Assembly: GCA_012514145.1 (NCBI GenBank)
Contig: JAAZAV010000049.1
Coordinates: 19,510 to 83,509, forward strand
From: Clostridiales bacterium
GTDB taxonomy: Bacteria; Bacillota; Clostridia; Oscillospirales; CAG-272
DNA length: 64,000 bases
Direction of reading: 5' to 3'
The position numbers and the translations under genes are program-made. The notes beneath the pieces were generated by a model. The model ran no database searches. It was not told the origin of the DNA and saw only the letters and a program-made list of their open reading frames with translations. This document shows, piece after piece, positions 1-19,304 of this stretch; position 1 is the first letter of the stretch, and every line of letters begins with the position of its first letter.

Positions 1-113
1 CTGAATGTGTATGTAATCTTTCATATATTCCTCTGAAATCAATCGGAAACATCTGACTTCCCGCACACATTCTACCATATCCGGCGCCGCCGCGCAAGAT
101 GAGTCTGCGCAAC

Positions 114-142
114 TTGAAAAACTTAATGAACTGTGATACAAT
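114..142 (+). promoter_or_regulatory. sigma-A promoter of the rRNA methyltransferase gene
   Basis: TTGAAA at 114-119, a 17-base spacer and TACAAT at 137-142. Transcription would begin near 149, which rules out the ATG at 99 as the start of the following gene. Confidence 0.65.
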
Positions 143-185
143 CGGATCAGATAAAAACCGAATGAGAGCCTATAAAGACAATAAT

Positions 186-1985
186 ATGGACACAAGGAAA
201 GAAATAAACATCAACGACGAATACACGACCCGGGTGATTGACATGACCGCTCCGGGGGAGGGCATCTGCCGCTGTGACGGCGCGGCGGTGTTTCTGCCCG
301 GCGGCGTCACCGGGGATCTGGTGCGCCTGAGGATAGCCGCCCTGCGGCGGCGGCGCGCCGACGGCGAGCTGCTCGAAATCCTTGAGCCTTCCCCCCGTCG
401 GGTGAGCCCCGACTGCCCGGTTTACGGCGACAGCGACGGCGACGGCGGGTGCGGCGGCTGTACCCTGCGCCATGTCGACCCCGATTACGGCGCGTCGGTG
501 CGGGAGAATTTAATTCGCGCCGCCCTGCGCCGGGAGGGTGTCCGCATCGCCTGCGAAGACCGCGCCGGTGATTACGGTGTCTGCGGCAGCAAGCGCGGCG
601 TCTGCGTTGACTGCGGCAGCAAGCGCGGCGTCTGCGGTGACAGCAACGGCAAAAGCGGTGATGTGCGCCCGATCCTGCGCACCCGCGAGATCGGTTACCG
701 CAACAAGGTTACCTTTCACATCGGTTCGGACGGGCTTATCGGCTTCTATGCCCCCTCCTCCCACCGGATACTGCCCGGCTCCCATCTCTGCCCGCTCTGC
801 CCCGGGATTTTCGGCAGAATTGCCCGGTTTACAATGGATGCGATTGCCTCCTCCCTGCTTCCTCTCCCCGACGGCGGCGGTCTTGAACTGCGGATTTCAG
901 CCGCCGGATTTGTCCGCGTCATTCTCGGCGTTCCCGCGGGCTATAAAGGCGATCTCTCGCCCTATGCCGCCGCCCTTGTCTCGGAATTCGGCGCGGTGAT
1001 ATCGGGCGTGCTCTCTGCCGCCGCCGACCGCCGCGGCCGCGTCGAATATACTCTCCTCCGGGGCGAGCGGTGGCTTGACGACACAATCGGCGGCGTGCCG
1101 ATGCGGCTTTCCCCCGGCGCCTTTGCCCAGGTCAACCGCGAGGGCGCCGCCCATCTCGCCGATATCATCCTGCGGTATGCGGAGGAATATCTTACGGGCG
1201 GTGATGCCGTGTCGGGCGGCTCCATAGATGACGGCCATGGAATCCGCATACAGGATGCCCCGGGTGATGGTTCACCCGTCATCGCCGACCTTTACTGCGG
1301 CAGCGGGTTCTTCGGGCTGGCTCTGGCAAAGCGATTCCCGTCAGCCCGGGTTTACGGCATCGAGCTGAACCCCGATTCGATAGCCGACGCCGAGGTCAAC
1401 CGCTCTTTCGGCGGGCTTTCTAACATCACCTTTTTCTGCGGCGACGCCGCCGGGTTCTCCTCCCGCGTCGGCGAAAAGCCCGGTATTGTGGTGCTTGACC
1501 CGCCCCGCGCCGGGCTCAGCGACGCCATGACCGCCGATATCGTCTCGGTGCTTTCTCCCCCGATTATTGTCTATGTCTCCTGCAATCCCTCAACCCTCGC
1601 CCGGGACCTCGCCCGCCTCTGCGCCGCCGGCTACGCCCTGCGCGAAGTGCAGCCGGTGGATATGTTCCCGGGGACTGAGCATGTCGAGACGGTATGTCTA
1701 TTAGTGCGGAGAAACGGTCTACATATCAACATTTATGAGGATGTTGAGGAAATGCTACAAGAAAAACGCGGACAAGCCACTTATCCGCAGATCAAGGAGT
1801 ATGTTTTGGAGCAAACCGGGATGAAGGTCTCTTCCCTGTACATATCTCAGGTGAAACGAAAATGCGGGCTGGAGGTCGGTGACAGCTACAACAAGCCAAA
1901 GTCCGAGGACAGCCGTGTACCGCAGTGTCCGCCGGACAAAGAAAAGGCAATCATGGACGCGCTGAAGCATTTTGAGATGCTTTAA
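186..1985 (+). CDS. rlmD: 23S rRNA (uracil-C5)-methyltransferase, RlmD/TrmA family
   Basis: SAM-dependent methylation of a uracil C5 in 23S rRNA. Seen in order: an N-terminal TRAM-like region, a cysteine cluster (C-x11-C-x2-C plus a later CPLC) fitting the family's [4Fe-4S] site, a SAM motif DLYCGSG, the LDPPRAG motif, and SCNP with the catalytic cysteine. An ATG at 99 is also in frame, but the promoter at 114-142 favours 186 (or 162); no clear ribosome binding site is visible. A 30-bp tandem repeat adds a Cys/Gly-rich loop between the TRAM and catalytic parts. After the HVETVCLL motif (about 1680-1705) the DNA drops in GC and encodes a roughly 90-residue tail of a kind known from other clostridial RlmD proteins. 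The join may mark an integration event. Confidence 0.9.
   Translation: MDTRKEININDEYTTRVIDMTAPGEGICRCDGAAVFLPGGVTGDLVRLRIAALRRRRADGELLEILEPSPRRVSPDCPVYGDSDGDGGCGGCTLRHVDPDYGASVRENLIRAALRREGVRIACEDRAGDYGVCGSKRGVCVDCGSKRGVCGDSNGKSGDVRPILRTREIGYRNKVTFHIGSDGLIGFYAPSSHRILPGSHLCPLCPGIFGRIARFTMDAIASSLLPLPDGGGLELRISAAGFVRVILGVPAGYKGDLSPYAAALVSEFGAVISGVLSAAADRRGRVEYTLLRGERWLDDTIGGVPMRLSPGAFAQVNREGAAHLADIILRYAEEYLTGGDAVSGGSIDDGHGIRIQDAPGDGSPVIADLYCGSGFFGLALAKRFPSARVYGIELNPDSIADAEVNRSFGGLSNITFFCGDAAGFSSRVGEKPGIVVLDPPRAGLSDAMTADIVSVLSPPIIVYVSCNPSTLARDLARLCAAGYALREVQPVDMFPGTEHVETVCLLVRRNGLHINIYEDVEEMLQEKRGQATYPQIKEYVLEQTGMKVSSLYISQVKRKCGLEVGDSYNKPKSEDSRVPQCPPDKEKAIMDALKHFEML
581..640 (+). repeat. two tandem 30-bp units inside rlmD
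   Basis: Bases 581-610 and 611-640 match at 29 of 30 positions and are followed by a decayed partial third copy. They encode two in-frame copies of a 10-residue CGSKRGVCVD-like unit, so copy number can change without shifting the frame. Confidence 0.9.
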
Positions 1986-2415
1986 GTGGAAAGTGAGAGG
2001 AAAATATACTTTCAAAAAACCGTCGGCTCGGGAACTTCTTTCGGTCGAAATACAGACGATTTCGGATGAGCATATTCGAGCGATTAGCGTTGCTCGTGAT
2101 GTTTGCTATGATTTTCCTCAGCCTGATGAATTGACTGTTGAAGAGTTGTGGGAGAAGGATGGTCGCAGAGTGGATTGCGATTATACGCAAATTGTCAAGC
2201 CAATTAGGACCTCTGCCTTTACAGAAGATATTATTCGATTGAGCCAAGTAAAATATTCACCATTTGATAAAAACAGTAATGGTAATATGGGATATTTGTT
2301 TGAAATCAATCGTAAGCTTGCGATAATATTTATTGAGGCATCGGTAAAGAAGAATCATTATCCCAACTTAGTTGATTATATCAGCGAATTACTTGTGGAA
2401 GGGGACGATGATTGA
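1972..2415 (+). CDS. hypothetical protein at the start of the low-GC island
   Basis: The frame opens with TTG at 1972, inside the rlmD stop region; a GTG at 1993 is an alternative. Neither has a convincing ribosome binding site. I do not recognise the family: there is no signal peptide or membrane segment, and the composition is low GC like the two genes that follow. It ends 59 bases before the helicase start. It could be a genuine small partner of the nuclease-helicase, or the 3' remnant of a larger gene cut when the island joined rlmD. The reading frame is intact over 147 codons, which is the main reason to list it. Confidence 0.45.
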   Translation: MRCFKWKVRGKYTFKKPSARELLSVEIQTISDEHIRAISVARDVCYDFPQPDELTVEELWEKDGRRVDCDYTQIVKPIRTSAFTEDIIRLSQVKYSPFDKNSNGNMGYLFEINRKLAIIFIEASVKKNHYPNLVDYISELLVEGDDD

Positions 2416-2474
2416 TTTTACAATAGCTGCATGTAACGATAATATAGTAATTTCCTTTAATGGGTGAGGTAAAA

Positions 2475-4451
2475 ATGAGTAGTTTAAGAGCATATTATTC
2501 TTCTGACATTGAAGATTTTTTAAACAAATCCAATGATGAAATCCTCGGTATAATTCATAAAAATGATGTTTCTGCTGATATTATGATTCAACAACGTAAT
2601 GCATGGGAAGAGGAAATTAATATTTTAAAGAAACAGTTAGCCGGTTTCAGGAATGGACGGATTATTTTTGAATACACAATTCCAAGAATGGGAAAGCGTG
2701 TTGATGTTGTTTTTCTATATAAAAACATTGTGTTTTTGATGGAGTTTAAATGTGGGGATACTGAATATAAAGCGTCTGCTTTTGATCAGGTTTATGATTA
2801 TGCACTGGATTTACGGAACTTTCAAAAGGAAAGCCATGATAAATTGCTTGTACCAATAATGATTGCCTCCAAAGCTCCGGCTGAAGCATTGAAACTTATT
2901 GAGTTTGATAAAATTATCGAGCCGATCAAACGCAATGCTAATAATATTGCTTCTGCCATTCATACCGTTTCCGGTCAATATAGTGAACCGTATTTTGATT
3001 ATTTGTCTTGGGAAAACTCAGAATATTTACCGACACCTACGATTATAGAAGCTGCACAGGCACTATATCGGGGACATAATGTTTCAGAAATTACACGGAG
3101 TGATGCCGGTGCTGAAAATCTCACTATTACGACAGATAAGATCAATCATATTATAGAATGTAGTAAAGCGAAACAAAGAAAGTCTATTTGTTTTGTAACC
3201 GGTGTACCCGGATCAGGCAAAACATTAGTGGGTCTTAACATAGCAATTCAGCGTTCTGATGCAAAAAAAGGAGAGCATGCCGTTTTTTTATCCGGAAATT
3301 TTCCTTTAGTGACTGTCTTACAGGAAGCCCTTGCTCGTGATAAGGTCGGTCAAGCAAAAGAAAATAATGAGCATTTAACGAAAAGAGACGCTTTACGTAG
3401 TACCTCGGCCTTTATTCAGATTATTCATAAATATAGAGATTCCTTTGTCGAAAACAATCATGTTCCTCCGGAGCGTATTGTTATTTTTGATGAAGCTCAA
3501 AGAGCTTGGACTAAAGATCAAATATCCAAATTTATGCACACGAAAAAAGGAGTTTCAAATTTTGACTATAGTGAGCCGGAATTTTTGATTAGCACAATGG
3601 ATCGGCATAAGGATTGGGCGGTGATCATTTGTCTTGTAGGTGGAGGACAGGAGATTAATACGGGCGAAGCAGGCTTGCCGGAGTGGTTTGACTCTTTGAG
3701 ACGGGCATTTACTGATTGGGATGTTTATATAACACCGCAACTTAATGATGAAGAATATAGACGAAGTTACTCATGGGCAGACATGATTTCAGGACTCAAA
3801 GTTTCTGAAGTTGAAAAGTTGCATTTAAAAACATCAGTTCGATCTTTTCGTACGCCTGATTTAGCTGCTTTCGTTAAAGCTATTTTAGATGTAGACACAC
3901 AAAATGCAAAAGGCTTATTAGCAAGATTTCGGGATCAGTATCCGATTGTTCTCACTCGAGATTTAGAGAAAGCAAAAGATTGGGTGAGGGCGCAGTGTAG
4001 AGGGACGATGCGTTATGGGGTATTAACCAGTAGCGGTGGACTACGTTTAAAACCTGAAGGGATTTTTGTGAAAAATGATATTTCGGTAGCTAATTGGTTT
4101 CTTAACGGGAAGGATGATGTTCGATCCAGTTACTATTTGGAAGATGTTGTCACTGAGTTTGATATTCAAGGTTTGGAGTTAGACTATACAATTGTTGCCT
4201 GGGATGCTGATTTTCGTTTTGAAAATAACGAGTGGCATGATTATAATTTTTCAGGAACATGCTGGAACCATGTCAATTTAGATAATAAGCAGATTTATCT
4301 CAAAAATTCATATCGTGTACTGCTCACAAGAGCGAGGCAAGGAATGGCGATTTTTATTCCGAAAGGCAATAATGAGGATCAAACGCGTTTAACGAAATAT
4401 TATGACGGTATTTACAAATATCTAAAATTAGTTGGCGTGGTTGAATTATAG
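2475..4451 (+). CDS. PD-(D/E)XK nuclease-DUF2075 helicase fusion protein
   Basis: The start at 2475 is preceded by GGTGAGG at 2463-2469; the in-frame ATG at 2460 lies upstream of this site. Residues about 60-115 carry a PD-(D/E)XK-like core: a glutamate, then RVDVV, then EFK, then Q-x3-Y. Walker A GVPGSGKT lies near residue 245 and Walker B IFDEAQ near 340. Later motifs (QGLELDYTIVAWD, and SYRVLLTRAR close to the end) fit the SF1-like DUF2075 ATPases related to the Schlafen helicase domain. It is inferred to act on nucleic acid as a combined nuclease and helicase. It has no signal or membrane segment. Low GC sets it apart from the surrounding chromosome, and an NTP-cleaving NUDIX gene starts 9 bases downstream. 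A role in phage defence is an inference from this architecture and context. Confidence 0.85.
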   Translation: MSSLRAYYSSDIEDFLNKSNDEILGIIHKNDVSADIMIQQRNAWEEEINILKKQLAGFRNGRIIFEYTIPRMGKRVDVVFLYKNIVFLMEFKCGDTEYKASAFDQVYDYALDLRNFQKESHDKLLVPIMIASKAPAEALKLIEFDKIIEPIKRNANNIASAIHTVSGQYSEPYFDYLSWENSEYLPTPTIIEAAQALYRGHNVSEITRSDAGAENLTITTDKINHIIECSKAKQRKSICFVTGVPGSGKTLVGLNIAIQRSDAKKGEHAVFLSGNFPLVTVLQEALARDKVGQAKENNEHLTKRDALRSTSAFIQIIHKYRDSFVENNHVPPERIVIFDEAQRAWTKDQISKFMHTKKGVSNFDYSEPEFLISTMDRHKDWAVIICLVGGGQEINTGEAGLPEWFDSLRRAFTDWDVYITPQLNDEEYRRSYSWADMISGLKVSEVEKLHLKTSVRSFRTPDLAAFVKAILDVDTQNAKGLLARFRDQYPIVLTRDLEKAKDWVRAQCRGTMRYGVLTSSGGLRLKPEGIFVKNDISVANWFLNGKDDVRSSYYLEDVVTEFDIQGLELDYTIVAWDADFRFENNEWHDYNFSGTCWNHVNLDNKQIYLKNSYRVLLTRARQGMAIFIPKGNNEDQTRLTKYYDGIYKYLKLVGVVEL

Positions 4452-4459
4452 ATTTTATT

Positions 4460-4927
4460 GTGAGAACTACAAAAAAGATTGAGGGCTCATTGGGTGGATT
4501 GGGGAGTGTTGAATTGATTCAAGTAACTGCGGCAATTATACAAAGAAATGGAAAGCTGCTTCTGTGTCAGAGACCAATAGGAAAACGTTGTGCGTTATTA
4601 TGGGAATTTCCTGGTGGCAAGATTGAGCGTGGTGAGACGCCGGAGGAATGCTTGGTGCGCGAATGCTATGAGGAATTAGGCATAACAATCAAAACGGAAC
4701 AATTTGCTCAGGAAGTGATGTATGAGTATCCGGACATTACTGTTAATATTCACTTTTATTTTTGTGAAATTATTAGTGGAGATCCGGTCTGTATCGAGCA
4801 TAATGATGTTCAGTGGTTTTCTTTGGAAGAAGTATCAAAACTATCGTTATGTCCGGCAGATGATAAAATGTTGAGCTTGCTTTCAAAAGATATTAAAAAA
4901 TATTTGGCATCTACATCATCAAATTAA
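4460..4927 (+). CDS. NUDIX hydrolase, MutT-like (deoxy)nucleoside triphosphate pyrophosphohydrolase
   Basis: The complete NUDIX box runs from GGKIERGETPEE to REcyEELGI, matching G-x5-E-x7-R-E-x-x-E-E-x-G. The core fold begins at IQVTAAII, typical of proteins that cleave NTPs or dNTPs to the monophosphate. GTG at 4460 opens the frame, but a TTG at 4514 with GGGGAG at 4501-4506 is an equally good start and gives the usual family N-terminus. It follows the nuclease-helicase by 9 bases and is probably co-transcribed. It may be a nucleotide-pool effector of the island or a simple 8-oxo-dGTP sanitiser; the sequence does not decide. Confidence 0.88.
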   Translation: MRTTKKIEGSLGGLGSVELIQVTAAIIQRNGKLLLCQRPIGKRCALLWEFPGGKIERGETPEECLVRECYEELGITIKTEQFAQEVMYEYPDITVNIHFYFCEIISGDPVCIEHNDVQWFSLEEVSKLSLCPADDKMLSLLSKDIKKYLASTSSN

Positions 4928-5319
4928 AATAATAAGATAATGGAGCTTATCACGACAAACAATAGAACAATCTACTCAAATAATGTTGATATTTTCCTAA
5001 GATGGCAGGATAAATCGCTGATTTCTTAAAGATGAGTAGGAATTCAGAGCAGGTGACAATCGCCTTATAGAAACTATCCTCTTAAATTTAATTTAGAATA
5101 ATTTAAGACAAGCGAAGGATTTAAGCTATACGAGGAAGAAAATAAGTGATATAACCCCCAAAGAGCAGACTAGATTTTTGCTATTTCATCTGTCTACTCT
5201 CTGGGGGCATATCAGTCTCGGTTTTTGTTATTCCGAGTGTCTGTGTCCGCTACGGGGGACTGTTTATTTACAGGCAAATCAACTGCGAGTGTCGGGTTTG
5301 CCGATTGACACACATCATG
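4928..5319. other. non-coding right flank of the low-GC island
   Basis: AT-rich to about 5150 and then mixed. The only structure I see is the inverted repeat at 5155-5207. The short frame at 5178-5450 runs antisense into the deacetylase gene and has no ribosome binding site. Confidence 0.6.
5155..5207. repeat. 16-bp imperfect inverted repeat
   Basis: Bases 5155-5170 and 5192-5207 pair at 14 of 16 positions around a 21-base AT-rich loop. There is no adjacent T-run on either strand, so a terminator role for the converging transcripts is possible but not convincing. Confidence 0.55.
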
Positions 5320-6627
5320 TTATACCGCGAAGAACTCATCCCGCACAAGGTCCTGAAGGAATCGCTTTTTTACATCCAATCCCTTCGCCTTCTCAAAAAG
5401 GTCGTATCCCGCTTTCTGACAGGCGGGGCAGGCTTTTCTCGGAATGGTAAATCCGATTAGCGATGCCCCCAGGTCGTTTCGGGATTTTATCGAATCCACA
5501 CCCGGGCAGTCGGGGCACGGTCTGAACTCCTGAACCTGCGACTCGAAAATCCCGTCAGTGTCGTAGTAGACCCGGCGGTTTCTCTTGACGGACGACTTGC
5601 CCCCGAAAAGCTTTTGCCCGAGAGCCTCCCTGCGCCGCCAGATATCAAGCACTTCATCGGAGATTCGCTTAACTTCCCCGGTGATTCTTTCCGACTGCTT
5701 CCATCTTCCGAGATGATAATCCGGCTCGGCGACGCCCGAATAGTCAAGTTCCGCCATGGCGAGAATAATGCCGGTATTCACATAGGGCAGCGCGCCCTGA
5801 ATGGAATACCCGCCTTCGAGAACGGCGATATCGGGATTCAGCCGGCTGTTGAGTTTCGCATAGCCCTGAGCGGAAAAACTCATATTGGTAAGCGGGTCGG
5901 TATAGTGATTGTCCTGCCCCGCCGAGTTTATGATGAGATCCGGCTTGTACTCCTCAAGTATCGGGAGGACGGTGTTCTCGAGAACGTATTGAAATCCCTC
6001 GTCTCCGGTGCCGGGCGGGAGCGGTATGTTGACGTTATAACCGAAAGCCGACGGGCCGCCCAGGTCTTCTATCGGTCCCGTTCCGGGGTAGAGAGTCCGC
6101 CCGTCCTGATGGAAAGAGATATACAGGGTGTCGGGGTCGTTCCAGTAGATGTCTTCGGTCCCGTCCCCGTGATGGCAGTCGGTGTCAACGACGGCAACCC
6201 TCATGTCGCCGTATTTTCGCCGCGCATAAGCCAACCCTACGGCTTCGGTATTTACGATGCAGAAACCCCTGTCGCCGTAAACCACCCGCTGGGCATGGTG
6301 TCCGGGCGGACGGACGAGCGCAAATGACTTGTCGGTTTCCCCGCCTAAAACCGCGTCGAACGCCCGCATTACCCCGCCCGCCGCGATAAGATGCGACTCG
6401 GTGACTAATTCTTCCATACCGGGGTAACAGAAATGGACACGGTCGATGTCCTTTTTTGTTGCTATCAGAGGATTGAAAAAATGAATTCCCTCAACGTCCT
6501 CTATCCCTTCTTCGAGCAGCTGATCTTGGGTGTAGAGCAGTCTTTCTTCCCTCTCCGGATGGGTGGGCGATATAGCCCAGTCGAAGGCGGGGAAAAGAAT
6601 CAGTCCGAGTTTGTTTTTCGCTTTCAT
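5320..6627 (-). CDS. histone deacetylase family protein (zinc amidohydrolase)
   Basis: An arginase/deacetylase-fold enzyme that removes acetyl or other acyl groups from amines. Visible signatures are RPPGHH, DTDCHHGDGT (zinc Asp and His), SAGQD (third zinc ligand) and the catalytic tyrosine in LEGGYS. A C-terminal extension of about 130 residues carries two CxxC pairs (CPDC, CPAC) that could form a zinc ribbon, which is unusual for AcuC-like enzymes. The start at 6627 overlaps the upstream stop as ATGA, so translation is probably coupled; an ATG at 6648 would give 7 more residues. Bacterial relatives act on acetyl-polyamines or similar small amines. The substrate here is unknown, but pairing with a HyuA-like ATPase suggests amide or lactam catabolism. 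Confidence 0.88.
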   Translation of the reverse strand: MKAKNKLGLILFPAFDWAISPTHPEREERLLYTQDQLLEEGIEDVEGIHFFNPLIATKKDIDRVHFCYPGMEELVTESHLIAAGGVMRAFDAVLGGETDKSFALVRPPGHHAQRVVYGDRGFCIVNTEAVGLAYARRKYGDMRVAVVDTDCHHGDGTEDIYWNDPDTLYISFHQDGRTLYPGTGPIEDLGGPSAFGYNVNIPLPPGTGDEGFQYVLENTVLPILEEYKPDLIINSAGQDNHYTDPLTNMSFSAQGYAKLNSRLNPDIAVLEGGYSIQGALPYVNTGIILAMAELDYSGVAEPDYHLGRWKQSERITGEVKRISDEVLDIWRRREALGQKLFGGKSSVKRNRRVYYDTDGIFESQVQEFRPCPDCPGVDSIKSRNDLGASLIGFTIPRKACPACQKAGYDLFEKAKGLDVKKRFLQDLVRDEFFAV

Positions 6628-8300
6628 CCTCTTTCCGCCTTTCTGCATATCACCAGTCCGGGTTTTATCTGAGCCTTAACCCTGATGTTTTTGTATGCTC
6701 TGTATTCCTTGACCATGTTGAAGCTGCTTTCCTCGGTTATTTCGGCTCCCGGAACGTCCGATGAAATGCCCATAGCCTGACCGGCAGACTTTACTTCGCT
6801 GAGTGCCCGCTCTTTTGCCCTCCGAAGGTCATAAGTCCTGCCGATTTTTTCATACACGCCCGTCTCCGGTATGGAGAGAATCTCTCTTTCGGTGTCGGCA
6901 AGGAGGGTGATTTCCGCCGTAGGTCTTGCCAGAGCGGCGCCGATCGCGTTGGCGATCTCATGATTCGGAGGGTATTCCACCGGCAGCCCGAGTTCTCTCT
7001 CCAGATATTTTGAAAGCGCTTTTGCCGGCCCCCCTATAACGCCGACCGACCGCGGTTTTACGGTTCTGCCGTCCAGCAGCTCTTTTATCGTATATACGGG
7101 ATTTGAATTTATCTTCTTGAGCGCGTTTTCGATTGTTTCGCGTACGGATTTACAGAAATTACCTATAATCATACCGGCAAATTCCCCGGGAGGCATCCGA
7201 ATCTCTTTCGCCATGCTCTCCAGCGCTTCGGCGCTCTCACGGCTGTGTTCGGCTTCCATGACTCCGAGATACACGAGGGCGTCGGTGGGTGTGAGGTGTT
7301 TCCCGCCGAAGGCGACCGCGTGCCCCTTCCTTTCGGGGCCGATTTTCAGTTTTCCGTCTTCCATGCGGACATAGCTGTCGCCGCCCAGACCCGCGGAGGT
7401 GCTGTAAACGGCGCGCACCAGCGTTTTGTGACCGCCGATTTCGATACCCGAAGGCTCAAAAACCGGCACCCCGTCAGCGAGGAAAAACAGATCGGTGGTT
7501 GTCCCGCCTATGTCGAGCAGGCATCGGTCCGCCTCCTTCTCATCCAGAAGGGCGGTCATACCCATGAGACTGGCGGCGGGACCCGAAAGTATCGTCTCCA
7601 CGGGTTTTGCTTTGGCGCCTTTGAGACTGACGGTTCCCCCGTCGGCTTTCAGGATATAGACCGGAGCGCCGATCCCTTCGCGTCTGAGGGCTTCCTCTAT
7701 GTTCTCCGCGAACGCCTTGAATGTGGAACAGACGGCGGCGTTCAGGTATGCTGTCCGAACCCTCCTCGGGAAGTTCAATCTTCCGGAGAGGGTATGCCCC
7801 ATGGTGACCTCCCGAAAACTGTCACGCAGATATTCTTCAGCCCGTTTTTCAAATTCGGGATTCCTGGTCGAAAACTTGCCGACAACCGCGGCGGCTTCAA
7901 TGGAATTATTAAGGAAATCCGCTTTGATTTTTGTCAATTCGTCCGGATTTTCACCGCTCACCGGTATGCCCCGGTGATCCGTGCTTCCCGTGACGTCGAC
8001 CACATTCTCGCCCAGGTCGTCGAACCGCCACTTAAGTCCGGGACCCCTCTGCAGGATGACTCCCACCTTGGAGATTCTGTTCTCCACTATGGCGTTGGTC
8101 GAGACGGTGGTGCTGAGGTTGATTCTCTTTATATCTTCTTTTTCCGTCCCCCGGAGCAGCTCTTTTATACAATTCCAGATGCTCCGGAAGTAATCGCTCC
8201 TGTCCACCGGCCGCTTGACCTGTCTCACAATACGGCCGTCATGTGCGGCTATAACAACTCCGTCGATATTTGTGCCGCCCATATCTATACCGATAATCAA
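6624..8300 (-). CDS. hydantoinase/oxoprolinase family protein (HyuA-like)
   Basis: An ATP-dependent lactam or hydantoin ring-opening subunit of the N-methylhydantoinase A/acetone carboxylase beta type. The N-terminus has IGIDMGGTNIDGVV and the second nucleotide-binding element is LLDIGGTTTDLFF, both typical of ASKHA-fold ATPases; a Gly-rich SAGLGGDSYV follows. The start is a TTG at 8300 preceded by AAAGGAGG with 7-base spacing. An in-frame extension to 8480 has no family similarity at its N-terminus. No HyuB partner is present. The stop overlaps the deacetylase start by 4 bases, so the two form one translation-coupled unit. The substrate is not identifiable. Confidence 0.87.
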   Translation of the reverse strand: MIIGIDMGGTNIDGVVIAAHDGRIVRQVKRPVDRSDYFRSIWNCIKELLRGTEKEDIKRINLSTTVSTNAIVENRISKVGVILQRGPGLKWRFDDLGENVVDVTGSTDHRGIPVSGENPDELTKIKADFLNNSIEAAAVVGKFSTRNPEFEKRAEEYLRDSFREVTMGHTLSGRLNFPRRVRTAYLNAAVCSTFKAFAENIEEALRREGIGAPVYILKADGGTVSLKGAKAKPVETILSGPAASLMGMTALLDEKEADRCLLDIGGTTTDLFFLADGVPVFEPSGIEIGGHKTLVRAVYSTSAGLGGDSYVRMEDGKLKIGPERKGHAVAFGGKHLTPTDALVYLGVMEAEHSRESAEALESMAKEIRMPPGEFAGMIIGNFCKSVRETIENALKKINSNPVYTIKELLDGRTVKPRSVGVIGGPAKALSKYLERELGLPVEYPPNHEIANAIGAALARPTAEITLLADTEREILSIPETGVYEKIGRTYDLRRAKERALSEVKSAGQAMGISSDVPGAEITEESSFNMVKEYRAYKNIRVKAQIKPGLVICRKAERG

Positions 8301-8712
8301 AGTCCTGCCTCCTTTGTTGACAAACTGAAAATTTATAAAGCATATCAGAACAATTTGACCGCAAATACCTCGACATAGGGGCTCTACTGCGTGCTTCGGA
8401 ACAGAAACTTCACCCTGTCGCACCCTGTCGGAATACACAGACAGCAGCGCCTGTCGAGAGGGATCTCCCGCCGCCAACAACGGTCAGGTCGGAATATATA
8501 TTGCAAGTCATATAATTTTCCCCCGTCATTCGGTTGTCCTGCCTGTATTGTATCATCCGCGGCGGTTATTTTCAATATGACGGCAACGAAATATCAGCGC
8601 GGTACAATGAAAAGGGCATTGCGGGTTGATGAAATTCATGATAAAATGGAACAGAGACAAGCAAAGATGTTTTATATATGACATAAGGGCACATATCGCG
8701 GGGGGTGGCAGG
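8301..8712. other. divergent intergenic region
   Basis: It separates the minus-strand hydantoinase gene from the plus-strand acetyltransferase gene. TTGCGG at 8619-8624 and TAAAAT at 8642-8647 with a 17-base spacer is a weak candidate promoter for the latter. I see no repeat or RNA structure. Confidence 0.45.
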
Positions 8713-15209: not shown

Positions 15210-15605
15210 ATGGATAAGAAGAAGGTATTGAAAGCTGTCGCTGATGAAACCCGCATGAACATTTTGAAGCTGCTTCTGCGGCACAATTATTGTGTCCGCG
15301 CGCTGGCAAATGAAATGAACCTGACAGAAGCGACTATATCACAGCATCTGAAGGTGTTGCGGGAGGCGGGCTTGCTTGTTGGAGAAAAGCGCGGATATTT
15401 CATGCACTATACCGTAGAGCGCCCGGTATTGCTCGAACTGGCGAAGGAGATAATAGCTTTGGCAGATATCAGACAGGAAACCTGCAAACCGGAAAAACGC
15501 GCCGATTGCCCTTCCAAAGACAAGCGGGATTGCCCGAAAAAAGGCAAGTGCAGCGACGAGGTCAAGGAGTTTTGTCACGGCGCGAATCACGTCAAGGGAG
15601 AATAA
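15210..15605 (+). CDS. ArsR/SmtB family winged-helix repressor with Cys-rich tail
   Basis: Helix-turn-helix at residues 43-58 (ATISQHLKVLREAGLL) and the wing GEKRGYFMHYTV are typical of ArsR repressors. One cysteine sits in the NYCVRAL position where metal-sensing members have a Cys pair; five more cysteines are spread through the last 40 residues amid Lys/Asp-rich sequence. This suggests metal or thiol sensing but is not diagnostic. It leads an operon with an ABC exporter (next start 4 bases after its stop), and the twin operators upstream imply autorepression of the whole operon. Confidence 0.87.
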   Translation: MDKKKVLKAVADETRMNILKLLLRHNYCVRALANEMNLTEATISQHLKVLREAGLLVGEKRGYFMHYTVERPVLLELAKEIIALADIRQETCKPEKRADCPSKDKRDCPKKGKCSDEVKEFCHGANHVKGE

Positions 15606-15609
15606 GATT

Positions 15610-16563
15610 ATGGGAATGGTCAGCGTCTCAAACCTTAAAAAGACATACGGCAGCTTTACTGCTGTAAACAATATCTCTTTTGAAGTTCAAAAGGGTGAAA
15701 TATTCGGTTTTTTAGGACCGAACGGAGCGGGAAAAACATCTACTATAAACATGATGACAGGACTGTCGCGGCCGACAGCCGGAGAAGTTATAATCGGCGG
15801 CACGGATGTAAGAAAGCAGACAAAAAAGGCTCAGTCCGTTATGGGTATAGTTGCTGACGAAAGCAACCTTTACAATGAAATGAACGGCTTTGACAATCTG
15901 TGTTTCTGTGCGGCTCTGTACGGTATGGAAAAAAAGGAGCGGGAAACAAAAGCCCGACGCCTTCTGGAAGAATTCAGACTGAAAGACGCCGGCAAAAGAC
16001 CATATAAAGCCTATTCCAAGGGAATGAAACGCAAACTTACGATTGCCGCGGCACTGATACATTCTCCGCAAATCCTGTTTTTGGATGAGCCTACATCCGG
16101 CATTGATGTGGAGAGTTCAAGACAAATTCGGGGAATGATAAAGGAATTGAAAAAGCAGGGAACGACCGTTTTCCTCACCACCCACAATATAGATGAAGCC
16201 GAGCGCATATGCGACCGCATCGCTTTCATATCAAAAGGACAGATAGTAGCATTGGGTACTGTTCCGGAATTGATGGCGAGCGTCTCAACCGGTCACGCCG
16301 TTCGCTTTGTCACAAGTAAAAATGCCGAAGAACTCTCGACCGAGCTTCAAAACTGTTTTAAGGGAACCGAGGTTGCCGTTCAGCCCGATAATTCTTTGAT
16401 TATGAAATCGGATGAACCTGTTTCTTTGTTTCCGGTTATGGATTTTTTACATAATAAAGGAATCGATGTATACGAAGCCAAAGAACTGCGCCCCTCCCTT
16501 GAAGATGTGTTCGTTAAGCTCACCGGCATAGATTCTTCCGTACTGAAAAGAGACGAGAGATGA
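15610..16563 (+). CDS. ABC transporter ATP-binding protein (multidrug/NatA-type)
   Basis: ATPase of an ABC-2 exporter at the inner face of the membrane. Walker A GPNGAGKT at 36-43, signature-like YSKGMKRKL, Walker B ILFLDEP near 155-161 and the H-loop TTHNIDEAE are all intact. The ~85-residue C-terminal extension is common in DrrA/NatA-like exporters. An alternative ATG lies 6 bases downstream. It is co-transcribed with the ArsR-like regulator and the permease at 16574, so it probably exports a toxic ion or compound sensed by that regulator. Confidence 0.92.
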   Translation: MGMVSVSNLKKTYGSFTAVNNISFEVQKGEIFGFLGPNGAGKTSTINMMTGLSRPTAGEVIIGGTDVRKQTKKAQSVMGIVADESNLYNEMNGFDNLCFCAALYGMEKKERETKARRLLEEFRLKDAGKRPYKAYSKGMKRKLTIAAALIHSPQILFLDEPTSGIDVESSRQIRGMIKELKKQGTTVFLTTHNIDEAERICDRIAFISKGQIVALGTVPELMASVSTGHAVRFVTSKNAEELSTELQNCFKGTEVAVQPDNSLIMKSDEPVSLFPVMDFLHNKGIDVYEAKELRPSLEDVFVKLTGIDSSVLKRDER

Positions 16564-16573
16564 GGAGATCAAA

Positions 16574-17305
16574 ATGAAGAGTCTTATCGCTTTTTGGAAC
16601 ATTCTGAAAAAAGATATTAAAAACTACTATCTTAAACCGCCGAATATCAGCTGGGGCATAATCTTCCCGCTCTCGTGGACATTGATGCAGCTTATTCGTT
16701 CGCCGGGAGAAAACATTTTGGAATTGCTGCCCGGCCTGATGGCTATGAGCGTTTTGTTCGGTACCACATCCATGCTGGCTGTTACCATAACTTTTGAGCG
16801 CAGCGGCAGATCTTTTGATCGTCTGCTTCTGGCGCCCGTGAGCTTAAATGTCGTGGTTCTGGCGAAAATAGCGGGAACGGTTATATTCGGTATGCTGAAC
16901 GCCTTTGTTCCGGTGGTTTTCGCATGCTTCTTTACCGACCTGACTAAAGTTAAATTCGGTTTGGTATTGCCGGCTGTTTTTATGATTGCTGTCAGTTCCG
17001 CGTTGATGGGGCTGTTGATTGCCGTATCTGCCAAGCAGGTGTTTGAGGCACAAACTCTCTCAAATTTCTTTCGTTTTCCGATGCTGTTTCTTTGCGGGTT
17101 GTTCGTGCCCGTTTCAAGTCTGCCGGTGTTTCTGCGTCCCGTATCCTACTTTTTGCCACTCACATATGGAGCGGATATACTTAAGGGAGCGATTATAGGG
17201 GAAAATACTCTTAATCTGACGCTGTCTTTCGGAATGCTGCTTCTTTTCTCGGCGGCGCTGTTTCTGATCAGCCGATACAATATCAGCCGCAAGTGGATTT
17301 TATAA
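16574..17305 (+). CDS. ABC-2 type transporter permease
   Basis: 243 residues with about six hydrophobic segments (for example LLPGLMAMSVLFGTTSML, VIFGMLNAFVPVVFACFF, LTLSFGMLLLFSAALFLI) and the loop TFERSGRSFDRLLLAPVS typical of ABC-2 permeases. It has GAGGAGAT before the ATG and lies 10 bases after the ATPase gene. Together they form an exporter of unknown substrate. GC content of this operon is lower than its neighbours. Confidence 0.9.
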   Translation: MKSLIAFWNILKKDIKNYYLKPPNISWGIIFPLSWTLMQLIRSPGENILELLPGLMAMSVLFGTTSMLAVTITFERSGRSFDRLLLAPVSLNVVVLAKIAGTVIFGMLNAFVPVVFACFFTDLTKVKFGLVLPAVFMIAVSSALMGLLIAVSAKQVFEAQTLSNFFRFPMLFLCGLFVPVSSLPVFLRPVSYFLPLTYGADILKGAIIGENTLNLTLSFGMLLLFSAALFLISRYNISRKWIL

Positions 17306-17509
17306 AGGATAATATTAATCATAATACCGAAGCGAGCGGTATCGATATCATTGAAAATTCGCCATTATTCAACGAGCACGAACCCAATGAAAACCATATT
17401 AGAATTTTTCCCTTTCTCATCCCGCCGGCTATCGCGCGGCGGAGAGAAAAATAAAGCGCCGCGAAACTCAACATCTCAAAACAATCCGTATGCCACACGA
17501 AACACGCCT

Positions 17510-17543
17510 GCGGGTCAACACATGACCTGCGGGTTTTTCTTTT
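17510..17543 (+). terminator. Rho-independent terminator
   Basis: An 8-bp stem GCGGGTCA/TGACCTGC (17510-17517 with 17523-17530, one G-U pair), followed by GGG and a T-rich run. It closes the exporter operon about 200 bases after its last stop; nothing else is seen in that gap. Confidence 0.7.
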
Positions 17544-17564
17544 GTAACTATTCGATGAACTCTA

Positions 17565-17618
17565 TTGACTTTTCGCGTCTAATGGTGTAGACTGCAAGCG
17601 AAGTCTAACGAAGTAGAC
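17565..17618 (+). promoter_or_regulatory. promoter with twin BlaI-type operators
   Basis: TTGACT 17565-17570, 17-base spacer, TAGACT 17588-17593. Two identical dyads GTCTA-N6-TAGAC lie at 17577-17592 (overlapping the -10) and 17603-17618 (start of the transcript). Adjacent operators of this size fit BlaI/MecI autorepression. Confidence 0.78.
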
Positions 17619-17635
17619 ACTGAGGGACATTATAA

Positions 17636-18004
17636 ATGGAAATACCGAAAATTCACGAAAGCGAGTACCGCTTCTGTCTCATAATGTGGGAACATGAGCC
17701 GGTCACCACCGTCGAACTGGTGAAGCTCTGCCGGGAGCAGCTGGGCTGGAAGCGGACCACCACCTACACGGTCATCAAGCGTCTCGGGGAGCGCGGCGTG
17801 CTGAAGAACGAGAACGGCGAGATCACCTCGCTTGTATCGAAAGACGAAGCGCAGGCGTGGGAAATCGGCGAACTGGTCGAGAAAAAGTTCGAGGGTTCGC
17901 TGCCCGCCTTTATCGCCGCTTTCACCAGACACCGGGACATGTCAGACGGCGAACTCGACGAAATACAGCGCATGATAGACCGTATAAGGAAAGGGGGCAT
18001 ATAA
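17636..18004 (+). CDS. BlaI/MecI/CopY family transcriptional repressor
   Basis: 122-residue winged-helix repressor. The DNA-binding part ends in the family motif WKRTTTYTVIKRLGERGVL, and the second half is the dimerisation helix region. Family members are inactivated by cleavage when their M56 partner senses a signal, or by copper in CopY. The M56 gene starts one base after its stop, and twin dyads in its own promoter support autorepression of the pair. No beta-lactamase is present in the window. Confidence 0.9.
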   Translation: MEIPKIHESEYRFCLIMWEHEPVTTVELVKLCREQLGWKRTTTYTVIKRLGERGVLKNENGEITSLVSKDEAQAWEIGELVEKKFEGSLPAFIAAFTRHRDMSDGELDEIQRMIDRIRKGGI

Positions 18005-18005
18005 T

Positions 18006-19304
18006 ATGCCCGCATGGCTTACGAATATAGCGGATATAATAGAAAATATGCCTGACTTCTCCGGCATGCTGAACATAAGCATAGCGGCGGGCTGGGTTAT
18101 ACTGGCTGTGATTGCCCTGCGCTTCCTCCTGAAAAAAGCTCCGAAACGGTTTCATGCCGCGCTTTGGGGGCTTGTAGCGGCGCGCCTGCTGCTCCCCTTT
18201 TCGATTGAGAGCGAATTCAGCCTTATCCCGAGCGCCGCCATCCTGCCGGATGAAGTTTTAAGGTATGAGGGCACGCGGCTTCGGGAGCCCGCCCGCCTTG
18301 ACATTATCTCGAATCCCGTCTTTTCGGACGGCGTTTCGATAGAACTTGGGCAGACGGTCGACAACATTCAGGTGCATATGGCGGTTATGACGGTCGTATG
18401 GCTTGCGGGAATCGCCGCTCTGCTGCTCTACGCCGCAGCCGCATATATTCGTCTGCGCCGAAGGGTCGACACCGCCGTGCTTTATAAGGACAATATCTTC
18501 CGGAGCGAAAATGTTTCCTCCCCCTTTGTGTTCGGCATAGTCAGACCGAAAATCTACCTGCCCTTCAAAATGGCGGAACAGGATATCGGACACGTTGTCG
18601 CCCACGAAAAGGCGCATATCCGCAGATATGATCACCTGTGGAAGCCTCTCGGTTTCCTCCTGCTGACTCTCCACTGGTTCAATCCCCTGATGTGGCTTGC
18701 CTATATACTGTTCTGCCGCGACATCGAGCTTGCCTGCGATGAAAAGGTCATCGGCGAACTCGACAGCGGGCAGAGAGCCGATTACGCGCAGACCCTTGCA
18801 GCCTGCAGCACCGGCAAGCGTGCCGGCAAGCGGGAGGCTGCCGCCTGTCCATTCGGTGAGATCGGGGTAAAAACGCGGATCAGGTCGGTGATGAATTACA
18901 AAAAACCCGCGGTCCGGATCATAGTATTATCGGTCATCGTCTGCATAGCCGCGGCGGTGTGCTTCCTGTCCGACCCGATAAAGGGCGGCGACATGGAGGA
19001 CTGCTACTATCTCATAATCGGACAGAACGGCGTTCTCGAGATCGGAGTGTCAACACCGCAAACAAGCGGCGGCTGCAGAAACGCGGACAATTCCACTTTC
19101 GAAAAGGGCGAAAAAGTGTGGCTCGGTCATCTGAAAGGCGATACGGATCTGCGGGGCGCAGCAATCACCGCATTTAATAAGAACGGAGATGTTGTATATT
19201 CTCTCCGCATTCCCGAAAATGCGACGGACGATGAAATCGCCGAGCTTCTCAACGGCGGGAGCTGGCTGCATTCCCCCGACAAGGCGGCGAGGGTGAGCGA
19301 TTGA
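18006..19304 (+). CDS. M56 family membrane metallopeptidase (BlaR1-like)
   Basis: Integral membrane zinc protease that would cleave the preceding repressor. Membrane segments near 24-41, 125-147, 210-235 and 300-317; HEKAH at 200-204 is the zinc site, preceded by the family motif FGIVRPKIYLPF. The C-terminal extracellular part is only about 110 residues and lacks the penicillin-binding SxxK sensor of BlaR1, so it is not a beta-lactam sensor of the classical type. The signal it senses is unknown. Confidence 0.87.
   Translation: MPAWLTNIADIIENMPDFSGMLNISIAAGWVILAVIALRFLLKKAPKRFHAALWGLVAARLLLPFSIESEFSLIPSAAILPDEVLRYEGTRLREPARLDIISNPVFSDGVSIELGQTVDNIQVHMAVMTVVWLAGIAALLLYAAAAYIRLRRRVDTAVLYKDNIFRSENVSSPFVFGIVRPKIYLPFKMAEQDIGHVVAHEKAHIRRYDHLWKPLGFLLLTLHWFNPLMWLAYILFCRDIELACDEKVIGELDSGQRADYAQTLAACSTGKRAGKREAAACPFGEIGVKTRIRSVMNYKKPAVRIIVLSVIVCIAAAVCFLSDPIKGGDMEDCYYLIIGQNGVLEIGVSTPQTSGGCRNADNSTFEKGEKVWLGHLKGDTDLRGAAITAFNKNGDVVYSLRIPENATDDEIAELLNGGSWLHSPDKAARVSD

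Follow-up and report, generated by a model that had tools for sequence, protein, structure and literature searches.

In a 64,000-nucleotide stretch of a Clostridiales bacterium genome (GenBank assembly GCA_012514145.1, contig JAAZAV010000049.1, positions 19,510 to 83,509; this whole stretch is called the window), the 3' end of rlmD, the gene of a 23S rRNA methyltransferase, is joined at an 8-bp core, GAGACGGT, to sequence that matches a domain found at the C-terminus of large serine recombinases. We conclude that this joint is very probably the left junction of an integrated element that later lost its recombinase and its right end and kept three cargo genes, two of which are predicted to serve in phage defence. 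The preliminary description of the window had suggested the scar of an element that kept its cargo and lost its recombinase, and we still prefer this reading over all others: relatives with a recombinase at the far end have a left junction of this kind.

The rlmD body was recognized by the TIGR00479 rumA model (194.7 bits, cut-off 183.55, window 99–1982). Its true start is uncertain; the open reading frame (ORF) list gives 99, and 186 was used for the computations. The frame passes through the motif HVETVCLL and continues on the plus strand to 1985, which leaves 93 amino acids (aa) past HVETVCLL and 96 aa past the core codons. From HVETV to its end, this tail is 87% identical to recombinase P0145 and 86% identical to the recombinase fragment P0141, in both cases ungapped over 101 aa including the junction, and 81% identical to the recombinase of locus L063. 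Judged by these identities, the tail is the C-terminal domain of a recombinase and not a rebuilt rlmD end. Thus, of the earlier proposal that an element integrated at the rlmD 3' end and rebuilt the C-terminus of the gene, the integration site is borne out, but the end was replaced by the recombinase's own C-terminal domain. No Pfam family covers the tail. A TIGR02314 match (16.9 bits, cut-off 499.7) was taken as noise and a sequence-profile match to ribosomal eS24 (E 0.013) as chance. The AlphaFold2 model of the tail (mean pLDDT 79.7, pTM 0.62) is helical, with helices 35–46 and 52–61 predicted to neighbour each other, and a fold search of this model against the PDB gave no match at E ≤ 0.001.

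The carriers of the tail fall mainly into two kinds of protein. We searched a database of 5.8 billion proteins and scored the 7,991 candidates sharing most words with the tail, 7,975 of which matched it. The best 120 of these 7,975 comprised 108 RlmD proteins (PF05958, the window's own included), 11 serine recombinases and one protein with another N-terminus. Ten of the 12 non-RlmD carriers were rescanned: seven had PF00239, PF07508 and PF13408, two had PF13408 only, and P0137, the protein with the different N-terminus, had none, although on inspection its sequence shows the same junction and a coiled coil of recombinase type. In the fetched loci, the 131 tail ORFs (repeat fetches included) were joined to RlmD in 97 cases, to a serine recombinase in 10 and to neither in 24. 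The 10 recombinase cases represent eight distinct places, as L035 and L144 are one place and L058 and L147 another. Recombinases P0136 and P0145 are only 33% identical overall, yet have nearly the same C-terminal tail; tails therefore seem to pass between recombinase lineages.

The tail is conserved as a protein. Ratios of nonsynonymous to synonymous substitution rates (dN/dS) had a median of 0.068 and were all below 0.5 in 616 pairs with dS 0.3–1.2, a set of non-independent pairs in which the tails of RlmD, those of recombinases and those joined to neither are pooled. For this set, the 131 tail ORFs were reduced to 110 with a located core (21 dropped), 97 of them distinct, and to 90 past the length and stop filters. 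The window tail and its counterpart at L061 gave a dN/dS of 0.17. By this measure the tail is under strong purifying selection.

Both halves of the exchange were found in relatives. At L073, L138 and L142, an RlmD-tail fusion stands on the left, and a recombinase that ends in ETV followed by an rlmD-like end and stop lies 9.7, 6.9 and 13.0 kb on, respectively; Pfam assignments were obtained for L138 and L073. In all three, the core GAGAC[A/G]GT is present at both ends, with ETV read in one frame on both sides. All four combinations of core junction occur: 83 RlmD-tail, five recombinase-tail, five recombinase-native and 16 native RlmD, the last with looser cores. A sixth recombinase-native row (L143) was a chance motif and was excluded. 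To the left of the core stands rlmD or the recombinase, and to the right a tail or a native-like end. The exact sequence GAGACGGT is present at no fewer than 66 of the 83 distinct RlmD-tail junctions and at four of the five recombinase-tail junctions. L144 and L147 are tandem cases, in which an RlmD-tail is followed about 15.4 kb on by a recombinase joined to a second tail. From the four combinations and these tandem cases, the circular form of the element should carry the tail on its recombinase. At L106 (5681–12778), three tails of two types occur in a stretch of about 7 kb: a long RlmD ORF bears one, and the other two are displaced and sit on short ORFs. This arrangement suggests that integrations were stacked at a single rlmD site. 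The window holds the RlmD half of the exchange; the integrase half is present only in relatives.

Native RlmD mostly ends without such a domain. We sampled 29 rlmD loci from relatives (L003–L031), which are best matches of moderate identity and may include paralogues; the 3' end is readable in 28, all but the cut L031. RlmD stops 2–16 aa past the aligned motif in 22 of the 28 and 24–52 aa past it in four. The other two, L009 and L012, carry tails. Within the order, 73 of 394 genomes have the tail, and a profile search across the phylum found it in 14 of 398, the window's own genome being counted in both. Among 203 stretches obtained by a pattern scan of named genomes, 157 were relatives, of which 80 were kept. 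Most of these 80 record titles name Clostridia or families that we take to be Clostridia; the few others include one Spirochaetia and one Chloroflexi record. Phage records with a tail numbered 11 (four of Streptococcus) and plasmid records 96; Enterococcus accounts for 90 of the latter (37–38% identity among the Enterococcus matches listed). Viral contigs gave only two relatives. The distribution of the tail is patchy.

The junction coincides with a step in base composition. A two-changepoint fit of GC content over the first 9 kb placed edges at 1692 and 5233, with a log-likelihood gain of 172 and segment values of 0.627, 0.378 and 0.538; the left edge falls within the core. The GC drop that had been noted directly after HVETVCLL is therefore real. 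It had further been described as opening a contiguous low-GC block of about 3.2 kb with three co-directional genes. The three genes do follow on the plus strand, and the GC content is low (0.367 for the 3.2 kb from 1700, against never less than 0.463 in stretches starting more than 3.2 kb away, in 100-base steps), but the block is not uniform. GC falls from 0.654 in the rlmD body (from 186) to 0.476 in the tail and 0.372 in the cargo. A two-step model beats a one-step model by 8.4 log units. The proposed check of codon usage gave the same picture, with GC at third codon positions (GC3) of 0.757, 0.602 and 0.29–0.35. On the right, the hairpin recurs at 80–84% identity on two other contigs of the same genome (loci L202, L203 and L205). 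It looks like a host intergenic repeat or a member of a terminator family and is taken to mark host DNA to the right of the island. Because of this recurrence, the right edge is more likely in the AT-rich stretch before the hairpin than at 5233. The features are listed in Table 1.

Table 1. Features at the rlmD end of the window (positions count from the first nucleotide of the window).
Feature	Position	Strand	Basis
rlmD body (23S rRNA U1939 methyltransferase), up to the junction	99–1685	+	TIGR00479 rumA; GC 0.654
Recombination core GAGACGGT, codons Glu-Thr-Val; probable left junction (attL)	1686–1693	+	Shared junction core; GC changepoint 1692
In-frame tail forming the present RlmD C-terminus; C-terminal domain of a large serine recombinase	1694–1985	+	Identity to recombinases
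Orphan 140-aa gene	1993–2415	+	GTG start assumed; no family match
Nuclease-helicase, Schlafen group 3, candidate PDC-S41	2475–4451	+	PF09848, E 1.4e-78; PDC-S41, E 3.1e-278
MutT-like Nudix hydrolase, candidate PDC-S07	4460–4927 (start 4460 or 4514)	+	PF00293, E 3e-22; PDC-S07, E 1.1e-45
AT-rich non-coding stretch	4928–5146		GC 0.309; presumed site of the lost recombinase and right junction
Long hairpin, genome repeat	5147–5216		z −4.67 for 5140–5225; copies on contigs C28 and C54

The helicase and the Nudix protein are the two phage-defence candidates, predicted from their sequences. The PDC-S41 profile spans residues 5–658 of the 658 residues of the helicase. In its structural model, the N-terminus forms a predicted alpha-beta-beta-beta-alpha-beta core, and D77, E90 and K92 are invariant in 10 aligned proteins. 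We take this core, from its motif, to be a PD-(D/E)xK nuclease. The first fold match of the model was human SLFN11 (E 3.6e-7, TM-scores near 0.3). The helicase is itself patchy, being present in 20 of 394 genomes of the order (the window's included) and at up to 74–75% identity in other families. The Nudix protein scored 101.8 bits with TIGR00586 (cut-off 97.9). A Nudix gene stands next to the helicase at L168 and L171 and at a distance of about 0.7 kb at L175, in three of 25 other helicase loci. The helicase loci have flanks of only about 1.5 kb, and many of the 25 are cut or are pieces of one place. Both PADLOC assignments are to candidate families only, and the pairing of the two genes is loose. 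The orphan gene matched nothing in scans of the Pfam, TIGR and PADLOC libraries; among 17 candidate proteins, two matched it at E ≤ 0.001, one of which is listed as the window's own. No conjugation or mobilization gene was recognized among the three cargo genes in these family scans.

We looked for the same arrangement elsewhere. Among the fetched loci, only the window's own place combines a tail with the helicase or the orphan gene; for the helicase this covers flanks of about 1.5 kb. Relatives sharing the same three genes behind an rlmD tail were likewise absent from the fetched loci, with one partial exception: at L089 (9953–11995), a displaced tail is followed about 1.6 kb behind by a Nudix match of 36% identity.

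Other RlmD-tails have different cargo behind them. At L061 (10706–19102), the tail closest to the window's in genome contigs is followed by a type III restriction pair, a PDC-S01 ATPase and a 938-aa protein without a PADLOC match. Elsewhere we found type IIG enzymes (L111, L121), HerA (L139) and PDC-M30A (L068). Eight of 10 hand-picked cargo proteins had a PADLOC match at 1e-5; the match at L138 looks like a cross-match of an ABC transporter. For a broader survey we took 36 loci in which 3 kb or more of sequence follows an RlmD-tail, of which three had no qualifying ORF and five near-duplicates were dropped; the remaining 28 gave 70 cargo proteins (at most three per locus, each of at least 180 aa). 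Restriction, HerA, Dol and PDC families were matched at E ≤ 1e-20, with one member each among the 25 of 101 PADLOC families listed. A PADLOC mad3 match in five of the 70 was read as a cross-match of ABC transporters because PF00005 also matches five of the 70. In Pfam, defence-type families are mixed with ABC transporters, regulators and metabolic genes, and one of the 70 proteins has a MobA/MobL match. These tallies lack a background rate, so enrichment for defence is not claimed.

Several results weigh against an integrated element that lost its recombinase. Within the island, nine recombinase proteins matched the tail only (tblastn, E ≤ 1), with no match to any of them in 4928–5146; elsewhere in the window they gave four scattered weak matches (E 0.18–0.82). 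A repeat search and a core scan near 5 kb gave nothing convincing as a right junction, and no conspecific empty site was found. Native rlmD ends occur in other genera, but an empty site in a close relative, proposed earlier as a check, was not obtained. The flank gene at 5320 had no match in 38 other relatives searched, which makes ancestral synteny uncheckable. The draft genome is 85% complete and in 69 contigs. The core was sought inside open frames only, and out-of-frame junctions would be missed. The 24 tail ORFs without a partner also count here; they may be short or displaced tails, products of truncated contigs or possibly of shifted frames. Finally, the composition difference between tail and cargo could mean a later arrival of the cargo. 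Because neither the right junction nor an empty site in a close relative was found, we only infer the loss of the recombinase and right junction in the window. Integration by such a recombinase would have taken place in the window's lineage, and its cargo would act in defence.

Some further observations concern the flank and the host gene. The contig ends with the window and would not include a right end located over 58 kb away. The only other plus-strand GAGACGGT in the window is at 8101, inside the ORF 6624–8480; a GTCTC near 5213, spotted by eye, lies in inverted orientation at the edge of the hairpin. The sole PF07508 protein of the draft genome, on contig C20, has an end without the core. 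A tyrosine integrase was also considered; the two PF00589 matches of the genome are on contigs C6 and C43, not C44. The flank gene at 5320–6648 is histone-deacetylase-like and is followed by a hydantoinase-like gene; the right flank may itself be accessory. A second stretch of lower GC (15210–19304) carries an ArsR-type regulator, an ABC transporter pair and a BlaR1-like M56 peptidase. RlmD has an unusual insert at about window positions 570–660, a tandem peptide repeat with GVCxxCGSKRGVC-type units in translation. The enzyme part of the protein is whole, and methylation therefore likely persists.

With these points in view, we weighed other explanations of the island. The tail could be a true scar, with the helicase, Nudix and orphan genes acquired separately after the element decayed. 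The lower GC and GC3 of the cargo, the better two-step fit and the other fetched helicase loci, where the helicase stands without a tail, speak for this course of events. We hold it to be possible but the less probable, since varied cargo lies directly behind other RlmD-tails, mixed composition is expected within one element, and the assumed start of the orphan gene is only 8 bp past the tail stop. It is very improbable that the tail is a native, lineage-specific RlmD domain that recombinases captured from rlmD, even though RlmD makes up most of the best 120 carriers and purifying selection would fit a native domain: the RlmD proteins of relatives mostly lack the tail, both exchange products are present at L073, L138 and L142, and a patchily distributed tail is shared by recombinases with only 33% overall identity. 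An assembly or binning chimera that joined rlmD to foreign DNA might be suspected in a fragmented, incomplete draft. We give it hardly any weight, as the junction lies exactly, and in frame, on a core used in many other genomes, and the contig beyond the island carries a repeat present on other contigs of the same genome.

A further proposal is compatible with a decayed element and concerns the function of the domain. Beyond being the end of a recombinase, the tail may act for the element as a regulator or directionality factor that the rlmD promoter expresses in the integrated state. The strong conservation of the tail and its predicted helical model with neighbouring helices are consistent with such a role, and artificial fusions of integrases with recombination directionality factors (RDFs) switch direction, according to the accessible part of that report (PMC5737554). 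The model of the tail found no fold match at E ≤ 0.001, and we consider a regulatory role doubtful.

For the integrated element itself, the exchange would proceed as follows. The recombinase would recombine two copies of the core, one in rlmD and the other close to the 3' end of the recombinase gene on a circular element, both the act and the circle being deduced from the junctions. The rlmD and recombinase genes would thereby swap 3' ends in frame: RlmD would gain a domain of about 95 aa, and the recombinase would finish with the end and stop displaced from rlmD. The recombinase half would later have been lost from the window, leaving the cargo fixed in the chromosome. As a tentative extension that we consider rather unlikely, integration could be a domain switch. 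The recombinase would be locked in a tail-less form, and the RlmD-tail made from the host promoter would act as a reporter or directionality control; in the genomes sampled, which are mostly clostridial, rlmD would serve as a docking site with a turnover of defence cargo that leaves tails behind. That tail loss switches the recombinase would be speculative and argued by analogy: the available text of a streptococcal study states that the two forms of such integrases probably differ in function (PMC4701971), and the RDF fusions, as far as that source could be consulted, make a tail-dependent switch plausible (PMC5737554).

Related elements have been described. In Streptococcus, integrative and conjugative elements (ICEs) with a serine integrase insert in rumA (Ambroset 2016, PMC4701971), and integrative and mobilizable elements (IMEs) use the same site (PMC5357655). 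In the accessible parts of these reports, the target is rumA, as in the window, short repeats lie in rumA at one end and in the integrase gene at the other, and 3' ends are exchanged reciprocally; of this exchange the window shows the RlmD half, and L073, L138 and L142 show both products. In the streptococcal account, the exchange shifts the frame of both proteins (PMC4701971), whereas the frame is kept in the window and at L073, L138 and L142, where only open frames were searched; unlike in the part of that report available to us, the exchanged end of the window is a conserved domain. The window's island also differs from the ICEs and IMEs described there in that no integrase, right repeat or transfer gene was found. 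CTn5 of Clostridioides difficile 630 delta-erm is a whole element that moved between sites, in contrast to the remnant in the window, and the portion of the report at hand draws no link between CD1844A and the integrase C-terminus (PMC4320837). In Dehalobacter, the rumA 3' end is likewise a hotspot with nested recombinase islands, in a region that, in the available text, spans 100–400 kb with reductive dehalogenase genes, compared with the 3.2-kb remnant here (PMC11578063). The island of the window is a remnant and not a member of the rumA/rlmD-targeting serine-integrase elements.

According to these partly available sources, the rumA target, the hotspot and the 3'-end exchange are already published. 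The apparent novelty lies in the nature of the exchanged piece, a conserved domain that is joined in frame, is subject to strong purifying selection and is followed in several relatives by restriction or defence genes. A literature search that covered few subscription journals found no earlier statement of the exchanged end as a conserved in-frame integrase domain, including in the accessible portions of PMC4701971, PMC4320837, PMC5704250, PMC5357655, PMC11578063, PMC12904643, PMC5737554 and PMC10083194.

Because 7,975 proteins match the tail and the best 120 are almost all RlmD proteins or serine recombinases, the tail can serve as a simple sequence marker of integration behind rlmD, whether past or present, and of cargo in the vicinity. 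Long RlmD entries with the tail are likely fusions of host and element. For the window, the junction accounts for the composition step and assigns the pair of nuclease-helicase and Nudix genes to defence cargo that is likely mobile. Should the tail alter the recombinase, this would be a natural domain swap coupled to integration, and state sensing by recombinases would become directly testable.

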